Virus record (IMG/VR): IMGVR_UViG_3300028287_000035 | Span: 1 to 20,770 of that record | Reading direction: 5' to 3' (one strand) | DNA: 20,770 nt | Source: a virus | Shown here: positions 2,900-18,771 of the stretch, in pieces | Position numbering within the stretch: position 1 is the stretch's first letter | Layout of the letters: each line of letters starts with the position of its first letter | Notes under the pieces: model-generated | The model's input: the letters and a program-made list of their open reading frames with translations, nothing else | The model's database searches: none | Told to the model about the DNA's origin: nothing | Program-made: the position numbers and the translations under genes

Positions 2900-3083
2900 A
2901 TTCTTCTTCCTCCTCATCAACATCCGCATATGCATCTTCCACATATCCGGTTCTGACTCTGTATTTTTCCCCTGCGACATAAGTTTTCTCGGAATTAACA
3001 GCAGATACCCACACAGAAAGTTTTATTATAATGAAAATAATAATCAGTGGAGTGAAGCAACCAATTAAAATTACTGAAGTCAT
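2874..3083 (-). CDS. Small membrane-anchored protein with acidic tail
   Basis: This encodes 69 residues. Residues about 3-28 form one long hydrophobic segment (ILIGCFTPLIIIFIIIKLS), acting as a membrane anchor or uncleaved signal. A short linker follows, and then a highly acidic tail (EDAYADVDEEEEEYGD). Its ATG overlaps the upstream stop as TAATG. The run of Glu codons doubles as the ribosome-binding site for the next gene. Its job at the membrane of the infected cell is unknown. Confidence 0.7.
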   Translation of the reverse strand: MTSVILIGCFTPLIIIFIIIKLSVWVSAVNSEKTYVAGEKYRVRTGYVEDAYADVDEEEEEYGDRTDYR

Positions 3084-3274
3084 TACAGTTCTTTCGTTAT
3101 AAAATTATCTATATCAGTATTCTTCCAGATAAGTTGATGTGCTAACTTATCTCTCAATTCATTAATTCTTTCCTCATCATAAGAATCAAAGTTCCCTCTC
3201 TTATCAACTTTCTTATAATAATGAAGAGCATTCAGTATTATAGTATAATCTTCTAATGACAACTCAAAGTTCAT
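3083..3274 (-). CDS. Small helical early protein, unknown
   Basis: This encodes 63 residues beginning MNFELSLEDYTIILNALHYY. It reads as two amphipathic helices (SLEDYTIILNALHYYKK and DEERINELRDKLAHQLIW) joined by a charged loop. This resembles a small helical hairpin. It is coupled to the glutaredoxin-like gene upstream by an ATGA overlap and to the membrane protein gene downstream by TAATG. Function unknown. Confidence 0.7.
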   Translation of the reverse strand: MNFELSLEDYTIILNALHYYKKVDKRGNFDSYDEERINELRDKLAHQLIWKNTDIDNFITKEL

Positions 3275-3507
3275 ACAAACATTCCCTGCTCATTCATATA
3301 TTGAAGTGCCTCCTTCATACTACCAATATGATGATATCCGATTGATACTTGAGGATATGTTGCATTTGATCCAAACTCTGCCTCAAATGCCTTATCATCA
3401 AAGTCAACACCTAAAACATATTCATGAAAGTCATCACCAAGAGATTTAAGAAGAGATATCATTCTCTCACACTCTTGACTTCCGTTGCTGTAAATTACTG
3501 CTTGCAT
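3271..3507 (-). CDS. Glutaredoxin-like protein
   Basis: At 78 residues this has the length and layout of a minimal phage glutaredoxin. It opens with a beta strand (AVIYSNG), then the active-site helix (SQECERMISLLKSLG, residues 10-24), and later the cis-proline loop TYPQV (50-54). It ends with IGSMKEAL, matching the usual Gly-Gly/Ser plus helix that holds glutathione. Glutaredoxins reduce disulphides, for example in ribonucleotide reductase, using glutathione. The odd feature is that the usual Cys-x-x-Cys is Ser10-x-x-Cys13, so the normal nucleophilic cysteine is absent. It may work by a changed mechanism or only bind. It is coupled by ATGA to the next gene. Confidence 0.75.
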   Translation of the reverse strand: MQAVIYSNGSQECERMISLLKSLGDDFHEYVLGVDFDDKAFEAEFGSNATYPQVSIGYHHIGSMKEALQYMNEQGMFV

Positions 3508-5412: not shown

Positions 5413-5469
5413 GATTACCTGGATATTATAGCAGAGTGGAGCAGGTGGTTTGCTCCTGGTGGACAGTTT
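5413..5469 (-). promoter_or_regulatory. Early promoter cassette, copy 2, with stem-loop
   Basis: Reading leftward the order is AAACTGTCCACCAGG, a hairpin (stem GGAGCA/TGCTCC at 5438-5456, 7-nt loop), an extended -10 TGCTATAATA (TATAAT at 5425-5430), then CAGGTAATC. The hairpin may end transcription of the HNH gene upstream while the promoter restarts it for the gene at 5013-5396. The AAACTGTC begins on the HNH stop codon. Confidence 0.7.
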
Positions 5470-5803
5470 AGTGAGTGGTCTCCAAAAATTCTTTTAGAGA
5501 TAGATTTCCCTTTTTCTTATTGCAGTGATTACACGCAATTAAAATATTACCAGCATCAAATGCCAAATCAGGTCTTTCCACATAAGGAATAACATGGTCT
5601 AAACAGAAATAGGTTTCTTTGGTTTTTGGACCTTTCCACCCACAATAGGCACACTTTACTTCTCTTTCACCATAAATTTCCATCGGAATAATAATTTCAT
5701 TCCACATATATCTTCTAAAATCTTTCCACTGTTTTGTTTGACATAATTCCCAAGAACCTTGAAGAATTTCTTTTCCATCCCAACAACGAGTCCAACCTTT
5801 CAT
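5468..5803 (-). CDS. HNH endonuclease (probable homing endonuclease)
   Basis: This encodes 111 residues with a complete zinc-supported HNH core. It shows Cys51-x-x-Cys54 (VKCAYCGWKG), then the Asp69-His70 catalytic start (CLDHVIPY), Asn86 (GNILIA), and Cys91-x-x-Cys94 (CNHCNKKKGN). The N-terminal 50 residues are Trp- and Lys-rich (GWTRCWDGKE, QTKQWKDFRRYMW) and may recognise DNA. HNH enzymes of this kind nick or cut DNA and often spread as free-standing homing genes in T4-like phages. Its ATG lies 7 nt after the stop of a leftover helicase 3' end, with GAGG formed partly by that stop. This shows it originally sat directly behind the helicase gene. Confidence 0.85.
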   Translation of the reverse strand: MKGWTRCWDGKEILQGSWELCQTKQWKDFRRYMWNEIIIPMEIYGEREVKCAYCGWKGPKTKETYFCLDHVIPYVERPDLAFDAGNILIACNHCNKKKGNLSLKEFLETTH

Positions 5804-5810
5804 AATAACC

Positions 5811-5894
5811 TCAACGACGGATAACGGAAATGGCAGGTTGACCCTGCTTAAACACGGTGTCTACAACTGCCTGAACGGACTTGGCAGTGCTGAT
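5811..5894 (-). pseudogene. Orphan copy of the helicase 3' end (27 codons plus stop)
   Basis: Read leftward this encodes ISTAKSVQAVVDTVF, then KQGQPAISVIRR and a TGA stop. It matches the last 27 residues of the intact helicase (6422-6505) with only three changes: Asn to Lys, Leu to Gln and Val to Ile. At the DNA level only about 55 of 84 positions agree by hand count, so the two copies are old relatives, not a recent duplication. Similarity stops abruptly at the Ile codon. An ATG at 5898-5900 could open a 29-codon frame through it, but this ATG overlaps a TATAAT box, so I treat the segment as a remnant. Confidence 0.85.
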
Positions 5895-5898
5895 AGAC

Positions 5899-5907
5899 AT
5901 TATAGCA
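5899..5907 (-). promoter_or_regulatory. Possible extended -10 promoter before the remnant and HNH gene
   Basis: TGCTATAAT is identical to the extended -10 of two of the early cassettes. It lies about 95 nt upstream of the HNH gene at 5468-5803. There is no AGGTAATC leader and no clear -35 box, so it may be coincidental. Confidence 0.4.
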
Positions 5908-5939
5908 TACATACCCCCCAAAAGCATTTTAGGTGCCTT

Positions 5940-6374
5940 CTAGACGGGTCTGAGTCTTACTACAATCTCATCTCCAATCCTATCAACACTTGTTACTCTA
6001 TAACCTTCAGCAAGTTTGTCTTTATCGTGATTAATAAGAGACTTAACTTCGTGGCAGTTGTAGCATAAGAGTTGACATTTATCAACCTCTGCTATAAGTT
6101 TTTCCATACTATAGTCCAAACACTTTGCTATTGTAAAACTTTTTTGAGTTCTATCAAGGTGGTCAAATTGTAAGTTCTCTGTAGTGCCACAACCTTTACA
6201 TTTGCCCCCCAAATGTTCAATAAGGATTTTCCTGCGATTCTGTCTGCGCTCACGGGTGTATTGTCGTCTCTTCTCCTTGTGCTTCTGAAATTGTGCCTTA
6301 TTCCTTTCTTTCTTTTTTTCCCTGTAAGTTTCGTCAGTAGAGTATCTTTCCCGGTCTTTTGCATTCCTATCCAT
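5940..6374 (-). CDS. HNH endonuclease inserted behind the helicase
   Basis: This encodes 144 residues. The first about 50 are highly basic and helical (RERYSTDETYREKKKERNKA and a QNRRK stretch), typical of a DNA-contacting arm. The HNH core follows: Cys59-x-x-Cys62 (KCKGCGTT), Asp71-His72 (LQFDHLDRT) and Cys104-x-x-Cys107 with His108 (LLCYNCHEVKS). The C-terminus (YRVTSVDRIGDEIVVRLRP) looks like a small beta hairpin. It starts 47 nt after the intact helicase stop and ends 45 nt before the orphan helicase 3' end, so the gene is bracketed by two versions of the same target region. This is what a homing gene leaves behind. Its exact cleavage site is unknown. Confidence 0.85.
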   Translation of the reverse strand: MDRNAKDRERYSTDETYREKKKERNKAQFQKHKEKRRQYTRERRQNRRKILIEHLGGKCKGCGTTENLQFDHLDRTQKSFTIAKCLDYSMEKLIAEVDKCQLLCYNCHEVKSLINHDKDKLAEGYRVTSVDRIGDEIVVRLRPV

Positions 6375-6405
6375 AACGCATTACACTCCGTTGTGTTATC
6401 TCTAT

Positions 6406-6411
6406 ATTATA
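6406..6411 (-). promoter_or_regulatory. Possible -10 box upstream of the HNH gene
   Basis: TATAATATAGAGATAAC lies in the 47-nt gap between the helicase stop and the HNH start. It partly resembles the TATAATA plus AGGTAATC arrangement of the early cassettes. It is followed by an ACGGAG ribosome site about 11 nt from the ATG. No convincing -35 box is seen. Confidence 0.4.
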
Positions 6412-6421
6412 TAGTATTTTA

Positions 6422-7615
6422 CTACCTTCTAACGACAGAAATGGCGGGAAGACCTTGATTGAATACTGTATCAACAACTGCCTGAACACTTTTAGCAGTA
6501 GAAATCCCAACTTTGTCATATACTGGAATTGCCACCAATCCGAAAGTTTTTTCTGCACCACCGAGTCTAATAACCCGTCCAATGCTTTGACTCAATCCAA
6601 TATAATCCATGTTACGCATGAACAGCACTGCCTCAAGTCCACTGACGTTGATACCTTCAGACAAAATAGAGTGATGAAGAACAACAAACTTTTTGCTAGG
6701 ATCTTTGCCCCATGCATTCAGAGTATCAAAGAATACCTCACGATTGACTTTCTGACCATCAATCACGGCACCAGTCTTGGATGTAATATACAGACAGGAA
6801 TAACCACGTTCAGACAACTCTTTACGAAAGTCAGATTGACTCAGAAGTTTGATAATCTGTTTGGTAGAACGTGCGGCAATCAGGATTTTGTCCAGTGAGT
6901 TCTCATCAATTGTCTCAATCAAATTCTCACAATCACGGTCGGCAATCATCTGCTTATCCTGAACCATATCCAGTTGCTTTACAACAACCTTAGGTGGCAG
7001 AATGTATCCTTGCTCTACTAATGTAGGAGCAGGAACATTACAGATGACTTTACCATAGACCTCATAATCATTCATCCCTGCCTTGTAAATAGAGAGAGAA
7101 TGCTTAGGTGTAGCAGTGAAGAAGTAACACCGATCAGCATCAGCAGAAAAGTGCTCCGTAGCAGGGAAAAAGTTACGTTGGACTGAGTTATGTGCTTCAT
7201 CAAAGTAAATCGTATTGACTTCGATATCTGCTTCTACAAGACGATGTAGAGAGTGATATGTGGTAAAGATTACTACATTCTCACCAGCAGTTCTTGCTGT
7301 ATTTACAAAAAGATTGATCTTTTCTGCTTTTGTTGTGGAGAAGTGTGAAGTCTCACCACTATGAACATGCATCACATGTGTATGAGTTGTATCGATTACC
7401 TCAAGAAACTCACTACAAAGTTGTTCTGCAAGTAGAATACGTGGTGCTACAACAACAATAGTAGAACCATTATCAATATACTTTTGATTCTCAACAATAT
7501 CATATATCATACACATAGTCTTACCACCACCAGTAGGGATGATCAACTGACCTTTGTCATATGCCAGCATCTCATTCAGTGCTTTGCGTTGATGGGGTCT
7601 GAGAGTGATGGTCAA
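6422..7615 (-). CDS. Superfamily 2 DNA/RNA helicase (DEAD/DEAH-type, UvsW-like core)
   Basis: This encodes 397 residues with the SF2 motifs in order. They are Gln9 in RPHQ, Walker A PTGGGKT (27-33), APR (57-59), DEAH (139-142), TATP (167-170) and motif VI QSIGRVIR (about 343-350). Such enzymes use ATP to unwind or remodel branched nucleic acid. T4 UvsW does so in recombination and the switch away from origin replication. This protein is shorter than UvsW and lacks its N-terminal extension, so I give no gene symbol. The start is TTG at 7615 with GAGGG 6 nt before it; two in-frame TAA codons upstream exclude a longer start. A promoter cassette lies just ahead. The last 27 codons exist again, diverged, at 5811-5894. 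Confidence 0.88.
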   Translation of the reverse strand: MTITLRPHQRKALNEMLAYDKGQLIIPTGGGKTMCMIYDIVENQKYIDNGSTIVVVAPRILLAEQLCSEFLEVIDTTHTHVMHVHSGETSHFSTTKAEKINLFVNTARTAGENVVIFTTYHSLHRLVEADIEVNTIYFDEAHNSVQRNFFPATEHFSADADRCYFFTATPKHSLSIYKAGMNDYEVYGKVICNVPAPTLVEQGYILPPKVVVKQLDMVQDKQMIADRDCENLIETIDENSLDKILIAARSTKQIIKLLSQSDFRKELSERGYSCLYITSKTGAVIDGQKVNREVFFDTLNAWGKDPSKKFVVLHHSILSEGINVSGLEAVLFMRNMDYIGLSQSIGRVIRLGGAEKTFGLVAIPVYDKVGISTAKSVQAVVDTVFNQGLPAISVVRR

Positions 7616-7748: not shown

Positions 7749-8318
7749 TCAAGTCTCTGTAAATATATGCCATCCTGTAGCAATATACTTTGTTTCAGTC
7801 TCACTTATAATACCATGATGTTGATGAGTCCAATATGCAGGCCAAATAACTAATCTACCCATTCTGGCACTTATAGTAAGGTCATATGTTGGAAATCTAG
7901 TCCCTCCATTATCATTTACCGTATTTAAGTAGAACATCCAGGCTAGAACTCTTTTAGATCCTCTGAATGATGCAGATTCACAATGAGGAAGAAAATATCC
8001 TTCATTTGGTTCATATTTTTGTATATTAAAAAGTGAGTCAATAGTCCAAGAACCTATATTATCTACATCAGGATAATTATTTCTATATTCATTTATACCA
8101 AGTTCTAAGACACTTAAAATAATAGAAACACTATCATTTTTTTCATTTACACTGTAACTAATATCTGTAGATTTTTTAGTTTTTGGTTTAACTTCACTGT
8201 CTCCAACTACACCTTTATGATGTCTTTCTGATTTATTTTCAAATTCATTGATAATAATATCACAATATTCTTTTGATAAAATGTCATCATAGATTGATAT
8301 AAAATTTTGATTTATCAT
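7749..8318 (-). CDS. 2-oxoglutarate/Fe(II) oxygenase, prolyl-4-hydroxylase-like
   Basis: This encodes 189 residues with the jelly-roll oxygenase pattern. It shows YEPNEGYFLPHCES (metal site His112-x-Glu114), AWMFYLN, NGGTRFP, GRLVIWPAYWTHQHHG (distal His about 165-168) and then KYIATGWH, where Lys177 would hold the 2-oxoglutarate carboxylate as in prolyl 4-hydroxylases. The first metal ligand pair is His-x-Glu and not the usual His-x-Asp; Glu is known in some members of the superfamily. The substrate is unknown; a protein side chain on the virion or host is one possibility. The ATG overlaps the other oxygenase gene as ATGA, so the two are coupled. Confidence 0.8.
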   Translation of the reverse strand: MINQNFISIYDDILSKEYCDIIINEFENKSERHHKGVVGDSEVKPKTKKSTDISYSVNEKNDSVSIILSVLELGINEYRNNYPDVDNIGSWTIDSLFNIQKYEPNEGYFLPHCESASFRGSKRVLAWMFYLNTVNDNGGTRFPTYDLTISARMGRLVIWPAYWTHQHHGIISETETKYIATGWHIFTET

Positions 8319-8941
8319 TTTTCCGTCTTACCTTTACAACCAAAAAATGAAGTAATCGCATAACGACCAAATCCATCAAAGTAATCAGATTCGTCAATTT
8401 CAACTTTAGTAACTCCATGTTCTACCCATCCAGGAAAGATAATCATAGAATTATTATTACAAGTAATCTCGTAATCATATTGTGGGAATATTAAATTTCC
8501 TCCTGTAAATTTTTTTGGTTCTTTATAAAAATATGAAAATCCTAAAAATTGCATTGAACTATCAGTATGAGGATCATAATACTCTCCATCATGATAGTAT
8601 CTGACTTTAGTTGTATCATAATCGGATTTAGTTGCTAATATACAACATTGATGTATATTAGCAAAATGATCTAAAACACCACAATTAAATAACTTACGAT
8701 TTACATTTAAAATATTTGAAACAGATCTATATTTTTCTCCATACAAAGAATCTAATAAAAGTGCTTTAGAGTTTGTATAATCAACTATTCCACCATAATA
8801 TTTTGCTTCTAAAAATTTTCCTGGTTTGGTATAAAAGTTCAATTCTTCCCATATAAGGTCCAATTCACTTTCATTATAAAAATTCTCAATAATCATATGT
8901 GGAAAAGGAAATTCATCCACTACGGCTTCTAATTTTTCCAT
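8315..8941 (-). CDS. 2-oxoglutarate/Fe(II) oxygenase
   Basis: This encodes 208 residues. The oxygenase core is clear: RYYHDGEYYDPHTDSS with His125-x-Asp127, GFSYFYKEP, GGNLIFP (148-153), SMIIFPGWVEHGV with distal His175, and GRYAIT with Arg193 as the 2-oxoglutarate ligand. These are the expected metal and cosubstrate residues, so the enzyme looks active. It begins about 22 nt after the glycine-rich adhesin-like gene and is coupled to a second, more P4H-like oxygenase. The position at the end of the tail-fibre block suggests, without proof, that it modifies a tail or adhesin protein or a host surface component. Confidence 0.82.
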   Translation of the reverse strand: MEKLEAVVDEFPFPHMIIENFYNESELDLIWEELNFYTKPGKFLEAKYYGGIVDYTNSKALLLDSLYGEKYRSVSNILNVNRKLFNCGVLDHFANIHQCCILATKSDYDTTKVRYYHDGEYYDPHTDSSMQFLGFSYFYKEPKKFTGGNLIFPQYDYEITCNNNSMIIFPGWVEHGVTKVEIDESDYFDGFGRYAITSFFGCKGKTEK

Positions 8942-18597: not shown

Positions 18598-18771
18598 CTA
18601 CTGAGCTTCGTTATTGTTCTCAGTGTGTATTCGTATCAGTTCATCATCGGCAGGCATCATTACTGCTGCCTTACCATCTTCTCTTACAATACCTATGGTT
18701 TCACCGTTTTCGACTCTTTCCATAAGATCATCAAAATTGTCTTCCCATTCTTTCAGGGTAAAAACTTCCAT
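18598..18771 (-). CDS. Phd/YefM-like antitoxin
   Basis: This 57-codon gene begins at ATG 18771 with GGAGG 5 nt before it and starts directly after the preceding stop. The peptide EVFTLKEWEDNFDDLMERV, followed by ENGETIGIVREDGKAAVMMP, fits the Phd/YefM fold. In that family a beta strand with a short helix is followed by the xVENGExxxIxRxGKxxAVxxP signature, which binds operator DNA as a dimer. The tail (ADDELIRIHTENNNEAQ) is short and polar, so the toxin-binding part seems reduced. Phd/YefM proteins neutralise a partner toxin and repress their own operon. The gene upstream (62 codons) is the only candidate partner here. An alternative is an orphan antitoxin that counters a host toxin. Confidence 0.7.
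   Translation of the reverse strand: MEVFTLKEWEDNFDDLMERVENGETIGIVREDGKAAVMMPADDELIRIHTENNNEAQ

Follow-up and report, generated by a model that had tools for sequence, protein, structure and literature searches.

What history leaves a viral helicase gene followed, on the far side of an endonuclease gene, by a second and diverged copy of its own 3' end? The question is raised by the IMG/VR record IMGVR_UViG_3300028287_000035, a metagenomic virus record whose positions 1-20,770 were analysed and are here called the window (the whole 20,770-nt stretch). On its minus strand, a chimeric UvsW-like superfamily 2 helicase gene is followed by an HNH endonuclease gene (5940-6374), by a copy of the last 27 helicase codons with their stop (5811-5894), here called the orphan, and by a second HNH gene (5468-5803). 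The arrangement is probably due to a homing element that replaces gene ends; it would sit in the uvsW-type helicase gene of a T4-like cyanophage and work in the manner of the yeast WHO elements, which home into FBA1 and each time replace its 3' end (Coughlan et al. 2020, PMC7282813). Below, nt numbers are positions within the helicase gene.

The duplicated helicase end

The helicase was identified by its match to the PHROG DNA helicase family (E=1.4e-64) and to Pfam ResIII/DEAD. Its cyanophage homologues are annotated as helicase or UvsW (UvsW in S-SCSM2R), and that of S-SKS1 is 90% identical. The gene (7615-6422) terminates in GISTAKSVQAVVDTVFNQGLPAISVVRR and a stop codon; its last 84 bases (6422-6505) translate to ISTAKSVQAVVDTVFNQGLPAISVVRR and those of the orphan to ISTAKSVQAVVDTVFKQGQPAISVIRR, each followed by a stop. 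Both copies share 24 of 27 residues and only 55 of 84 bases, as the sequence-only reading of this DNA had already noticed, together with the position of the HNH gene between them. A tblastn search with the helicase protein against its own record recovers the second copy with E=3.7e-10, so the duplicate end is not a product of chance.

The enclosed HNH gene matches a PHROG HNH endonuclease (E=1.6e-25), with no family found in Pfam or NCBIfam. In its protein, C59, C62, D71, H72, C104, C107 and H108 are conserved in 20 relatives; the predicted model has a pLDDT of 92, and its weak fold matches in the PDB (E about 0.05) include HNH nucleases among others. Relatives of this gene flank the same helicase. 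The second HNH gene (Pfam HNH, E=6.6e-10) starts 7 bases past the orphan stop.

Relatives without the nuclease

Eighty viral contigs with the closest helicases were compared, and those that reach the gene end have a single helicase end. The nearest ones (L003-L011) are at least 90% identical to the window in most blocks of 60 bases along the helicase body, against only 33-43 of 60 bases in each of the last three blocks; at their helicase ends, 77-83 of 84 bases agree with the orphan, compared with 54-57 for the end of the window's helicase itself. Comparing the window with the nuclease-free L007, whose end agrees with the orphan at 83/84, identity is 798/834 over nt 181-1014 and 114/180 over nt 1015-1194. 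According to these alignments, the helicase end that the window now has is foreign, and the orphan is the former one. The prediction that phages free of the HNH gene would carry the orphan's version of the end is thus borne out. The sequence-only reading had spoken of the last 27 codons; as judged by the relatives, the foreign tract is longer and covers about 180 bases (window 6422-6601).

The recipient postulated in the sequence-only reading, having the second HNH gene straight behind its helicase, also exists. Genes of this type stand directly behind the helicase in L014/L122, L123, L124 and L125; L125 lacks the first HNH gene, and it agrees with the window almost base for base from the orphan through the second HNH gene. 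The duplication is not an ancient arrangement collinear in all relatives, as the HNH-free ones do not have it, nor is the orphan a conserved expressed peptide, as that of L105 is interrupted by an in-frame stop.

As a separate observation, the helicases of L007, L008, L009, L011 and L125 are divergent at nt ~15-180 and near-identical over the remaining body, which may represent nuclease-free conversion tracts; no HNH2-family or GIY-YIG-type gene was found upstream of these five.

Origin of the donor end and probable exchange of nucleases

The foreign end had been attributed to a donor carrying this same HNH gene, with the expectation that HNH-bearing relatives would match 6422-6505. The alignments point elsewhere. 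The closest DNA is that of L182, which carries a GIY-YIG-like gene and not the window's HNH gene: identity is 166/167 over nt 1015-1181 and only 255/315 over the preceding 315 nt. The last 84 bases agree with L182 at 79/84 and with the HNH-bearing L083 at 57/84; because of these values and of the nearly whole donor tract found in L182, the HNH gene as donor of the helicase end was dropped as the simplest reading. The final 13 bases of the helicase diverge from L182 again (8/13).

A search for the exact right-hand 27-base junction gave a match in L179, which shares the downstream backbone of the window (99.4% over 3.2 kb) and has a different helicase and a GIY-YIG-type gene replacing the HNH gene. 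Such a gene, followed by the same spacer and the orphan end, is found behind three different helicases, at the place of the HNH gene (L179:2623-3168, L181:2151-2696, L182:3001-3546). In addition, window positions 5929-5955 read ACTCAGACCCGTCTAGAAGGCACCTAA, which are the last 27 bases of the GIY-YIG-type gene of these three loci, and the HNH frame ends inside them. As read from the sequences, unrelated nucleases are exchanged between the same arms of one element. The end-replacing element probably came first and the HNH gene replaced its nuclease later, because the donor match is the GIY-YIG-bearing L182 and the final 27 bases of that gene survive in the window. In the simplest order of events, a GIY-YIG-type element would have entered an L125-like recipient, and the HNH gene would then have displaced the GIY-YIG-type gene, bringing along a short piece of its own upstream flank, only a few bases long.

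Left boundary and putative cut site

When L182 is compared with its nuclease-free relative L077, identity drops at the same place as between the window and L007. In both pairs, the recipient sequence runs through GA(T/C)TA(T/C)AT and the donor sequence follows at once, before the codons SQSIGRVIR, which are motif VI of superfamily 2 helicases. If the cut site were fixed, different backgrounds would share their left boundary, and the common switch point suggests a nuclease cut site near nt 1015-1017 (codons 339-340, motif VI). The cut had earlier been placed near the Ile-Ser-Thr codons, about 95 bases further on, and that position is not retained. The orphan begins at nt 1111, so that about 95 bases of the recipient were lost on the right.

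Considering the mismatch of body versus tail with the nearest relative in 118 helicases, the window has the largest value and L182 the third, each being the best tail match of the other, and the mismatch is greater when a nuclease lies downstream (Mann-Whitney p=0.009). Presence or absence of an HNH gene beside the target is also polymorphic between the window and L125 and between KJ019100 and KJ019149. One HNH gene of the same family, placed immediately after the helicase, distinguishes the isolates ACG-2014f US40 (L127, KJ019100) and C21, and the identity of their helicases falls from about nt 1021, with scattered differences earlier too. In US40 (2952-3429), the last 14 bases of the resident helicase form the end of the HNH frame, and thus the HNH C-terminus, the helicase end being supplied anew upstream.

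Orphan ends across helicase loci

Of the 118 full-length helicases collected, 43 lie within 900 bases of a gene from one of three nuclease families, and the other 75 do not. Orphan ends occur in 6 of the 43 and in 0 of the 75 (Fisher p=0.0019), each time with the nuclease placed between the gene and the orphan; the set is not random, as some of its loci were brought in by way of the nuclease or of the junction. This order of full-length helicase, nuclease and 3' helicase fragment is seen in the window, L105, L179, L181 and L182. The spacer is common to the window, L179, L181 and L182, with a similar one in L105, and the orphans of these five loci probably share one origin; an independent origin of the window and L105 orphans was considered and dropped, as the spacers before them resemble those of the GIY-YIG loci. 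The orphans differ in their 3' parts, which lead into the second HNH gene in the window, into the gene of L007 type in L181/L182 and into one of 203 residues in L179; crossovers on the right-hand side that fall inside the orphan would have this effect. Its reading frame is intact in the window, L179, L181 and L182. Thus, the earlier view of the recipient's last 27 codons as a remnant left behind is right in that the orphan is the recipient's old end, but it is not a one-off relic, since spacer and orphan recur behind different helicases with a 3' part that varies with the recipient. In phage isolates, every helicase end found is a single one (88 places in 88 records) and no element spacer was found; all known cases of the full orphan arrangement come from contigs of uncultured phages.

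Proposed mechanism and alternatives

The element would consist of a donor helicase 3' end, a nuclease gene, a short promoter-bearing spacer and an orphan copy of a helicase 3' end. Its nuclease would cut a nuclease-free helicase gene near the motif VI codons. The left end of the break would then copy the diverged 3' end of the donor, keeping the helicase open and changing the target, and next the nuclease gene. Homology between the orphan and the recipient's 3' end would let the right end of the break pair with the orphan, and the recipient's old end would thereby become the new orphan. In the window, the element entering the L125-like recipient would have been of GIY-YIG type, its gene later giving way to the HNH gene at 5940-6374 apart from 27 bases. 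The outcome, a gene conversion, is written in the sequence, and the cut and repair are the steps that we infer to have produced it.

Several points weigh against this mechanism. The nuclease behind the window's replacement is a deduced one, the HNH gene being the one present. The GIY-YIG assignment comes from family members whose profile matches are weak (PHROG homing endonuclease, 1.1e-9; Pfam LEM-3_GIY-YIG, 8.7e-4; profile against PDB GIY-YIG, 0.005); the L179 protein alone gives no Pfam GIY-YIG match, and the predicted model of the L182 protein has a low confidence, too poor to be used. The right arm stops short of the putative cut, as the orphan starts about 95 bases downstream of it. Moreover, 37 of the 43 nuclease-flanked helicases have no orphan, which is thus not required for residence, and the right ends of the window, L105, L179, L181 and L182 are homologous and do not represent independent origins of orphans. 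Finally, metagenomic contigs are fragments.

Some of these points would fit a passive scar of one-sided homing, in which only the left side had homology, the right side was joined illegitimately, the remnant is useless, and the later spread is ordinary recombination where the orphan has no role. In T4, intron homing with homology on one side only yields illegitimate junctions at sites of microhomology, as described in PMC2988022, and the junction TATGCTATAATG resembles the recipient's TATGATAAAGTG; the distance of the orphan from the cut, its decay in L105 and its absence from most nuclease-flanked helicases agree with such a scar. However, the orphan and the same spacer persist behind four different helicase backgrounds, and the passage of its 3' part into different downstream genes (L007-type, 203-aa and HNH) is what right-hand crossovers within the orphan predict, making the scar a rather unlikely, if serious, explanation. 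Ordinary homologous recombination between co-infecting phages, with the nucleases as bystanders, could also make a chimera, as nuclease-free helicases are mosaic too (for example in the divergent first ~180 bases of L007, L008, L011 and L125). It would leave unexplained the restriction of orphans to nuclease-flanked genes with the nuclease always between gene and orphan, the left boundaries that coincide in two backgrounds and the larger tail-versus-body mismatch of helicases with a downstream nuclease, and it is regarded as improbable.

The use of the orphan as a small expressed peptide is suggested by its in-frame ATG (MSISTAKS...) and by the frame kept in four loci; the ATG overlaps the TATAAT box, so that a transcript from that promoter would begin after it, the L105 copy has its in-frame stop, and recent origin accounts for the matches of the orphan to recipients, so this use is very improbable. 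An error of assembly has to be thought of for a metagenomic virus record of 20,770 bases, but the exact junction is also present in L179, whose nuclease and helicase differ, closely similar junctions occur in L181 and L182, and isolate genomes show the presence and absence of a nuclease with the same boundary; a chimeric contig is scarcely credible. As for a tandem duplication of the helicase end with later silent changes, which would explain why both copies encode nearly the same residues, it is already refuted by the relatives: the orphan agrees with the nuclease-free L007 at 83/84 and the helicase's own end at about 55/84, and divergence after a duplication would not make the orphan match another phage. 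The end-replacing element is retained as the preferred explanation.

Mirror-image loci and leader hairpins

Members of the family of the HNH gene at 5940-6374 also lie directly in front of the helicase, in L090-L097, L104, L130-L134 and L143. L131 belongs to a near relative of the window's virus, with one difference in the 120 bases before the helicase start and none in the following coding stretch. The recipient promoter and the first 79 helicase bases match the window, and then come the HNH gene and a foreign promoter with a foreign helicase start, which gives way to the resident sequence just after the Walker A codons. The same mirror-image plan of orphan helicase start, HNH gene and complete helicase with a foreign start is found in L091/L092 (L131:2852-3490; L091:1458-2100). 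In a tree, the HNH genes before and behind the helicase fall in separate clusters, with 4 changes of position versus 15 with shuffled labels. In L090, the helicase has HNH-family genes on both sides (503-979, 2276-2839).

Taken together, there may be a recurrent class of elements in T4-like cyanophages attacking the helicase from both ends, a proposal that we hold to be evenly balanced between true and false. It would comprise 3' replacers, with a putative cut at motif VI, and 5' replacers, with a putative cut at the Walker A codons, each bringing a diverged end that repairs the gene and using the displaced end as a homology arm, HNH and GIY-YIG nucleases being exchangeable with the arms kept.

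Sixteen leaders of HNH-family genes, selected for carrying a hairpin (L090, L091, L093, L095-L099, L102, L105, L130-L132, L134, L136 and L137), have TATAAATA, or a sequence close to it, enclosed by the hairpin arms immediately ahead of the start codon. The hairpin covaries in these leaders, with 86.7% of cells paired versus 67.7% when shuffled and a covariation score of 0.486 versus 0.161 (0/500). It resembles the control device of T4 I-TevI; in the consulted part of PMC2988022, hairpins and late promoters control T4 I-TevI, SegB and Aeh1 MobE, hairpin-enclosed late promoters being known for segB and Aeh1 mobE. No significant hairpin was found in the window's own HNH leader (z=-0.8), which thus does not display the T4-type control by hairpin and late promoter.

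Relation to known systems

The features of the WHO mechanism that can be looked for in sequence were found here: a nuclease between the gene and a 3' fragment, a chimeric target, and an orphan that is the recipient's end, continuing into the downstream gene of L125. Both systems also have in common the repeated replacement by different family members, decaying fragments and a fragment proposed as the recombination site (PMC7282813, for FBA1 in Torulaspora and Lachancea). However, WHO nucleases are intein-like with zinc fingers and target a yeast aldolase gene, and that paper makes no mention of phage; here, HNH and GIY-YIG-type genes stand at a phage helicase, unrelated nucleases are interchanged in one element and mirror-image cases occur at the gene start. 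Membership of the WHO gene family, that is, an intein-like endonuclease with zinc finger at FBA1, was thus not found. As the layout matches with unrelated nucleases, the element seems to work like a WHO element without belonging to the family.

Mobile open reading frames of fungal mitochondria (Allomyces atp6; Glomus atp6, atp9, cox2 and nad3) have the same layout, with a foreign 3' end and an endonuclease frame inserted and the native 3' end displaced downstream, according to the excerpted text of PMC3630166. As in the window, their native end matches relatives in DNA, and the inserted end has diverged at the DNA level, with its protein sequence conserved. They differ in residing in mitochondrial genes and in encoding mostly LAGLIDADG nucleases, with GIY-YIG in atp9 and no HNH among the cases in that excerpt.

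Free-standing homing endonucleases of T4-like phages likewise adjoin their target. SegE of T4 lies between inh and uvsW and targets uvsW, with co-conversion; unlike the window's gene it is of GIY-YIG type, and no displaced target-gene end is described in the consulted part of PMC2988022. The same part reports one-sided T4 intron homing with homology on one side and a microhomology junction on the other, as here, in laboratory intron constructs, unlike these natural end-replacing elements. No phage equivalent of end-replacing elements was found described in the open literature, most subscription papers being beyond reach, which is not proof of absence; the end-swapping trick is known in yeast and fungal mitochondria, and no description was found for viruses of bacteria.

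If the proposed mechanism is true, phages have independently reached the WHO strategy, in which a selfish nuclease needs neither intron nor intein to enter a conserved gene, since it brings along a diverged substitute for the end of that gene. Engineered home-and-rescue drives follow the same logic. It would also explain why the helicase ends of marine phages turn over rapidly and with little change in protein, and the isolates US40 and C21, only one of which has such a nuclease gene, would be a tractable system for the invasion of new sites with one-sided homology.

Locus layout and neighbouring genes

Table. Features of the helicase locus, with positions in the window.
Feature	Position	Strand	Remarks
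UvsW-like superfamily 2 helicase gene, chimeric	6422-7615	-	397 codons, TTG start; 5' part from recipient, 3' end from donor
Resident helicase part, nt 1-1014	6602-7615	-	nt 181-1014, 798/834 versus nuclease-free L007
Donor 3' helicase end, nt 1015-1181	6435-6601	-	166/167 versus GIY-YIG-bearing L182; starts at motif VI
Final 13 nt of helicase	6422-6434	-	8/13 versus L182; probably arrived with HNH gene
Left junction, putative nuclease cut region	6599-6602	-	codons 339-340, just before SQSIGRVIR (motif VI)
HNH endonuclease gene	5940-6374	-	144 aa; PHROG HNH; probable replacement of earlier GIY-YIG gene
Stub, TQTRLEGT and stop	5929-5955	-	last 27 bases of L179/L181/L182 GIY-YIG gene; overlaps HNH gene 3' end
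Element spacer	5895-5928	-	promoter-like box TGCTATAAT adjoining orphan; common to L179, L181, L182
Orphan helicase 3' end	5811-5894	-	27 codons and stop; 83/84 versus L007, 80/84 versus L125; proposed right homology arm
Second HNH gene	5468-5803	-	recipient's resident downstream gene; 68 aligned residues 100% identical to L125 gene

Directly upstream of the helicase, two adjacent 2OG-Fe(II) oxygenase genes are located at window 7749-8941, where L131 has a tail fibre gene. Elsewhere in the window, a Phd-like antitoxin gene is present at 18598-18771 (PHROG 375, E=3.6e-16).
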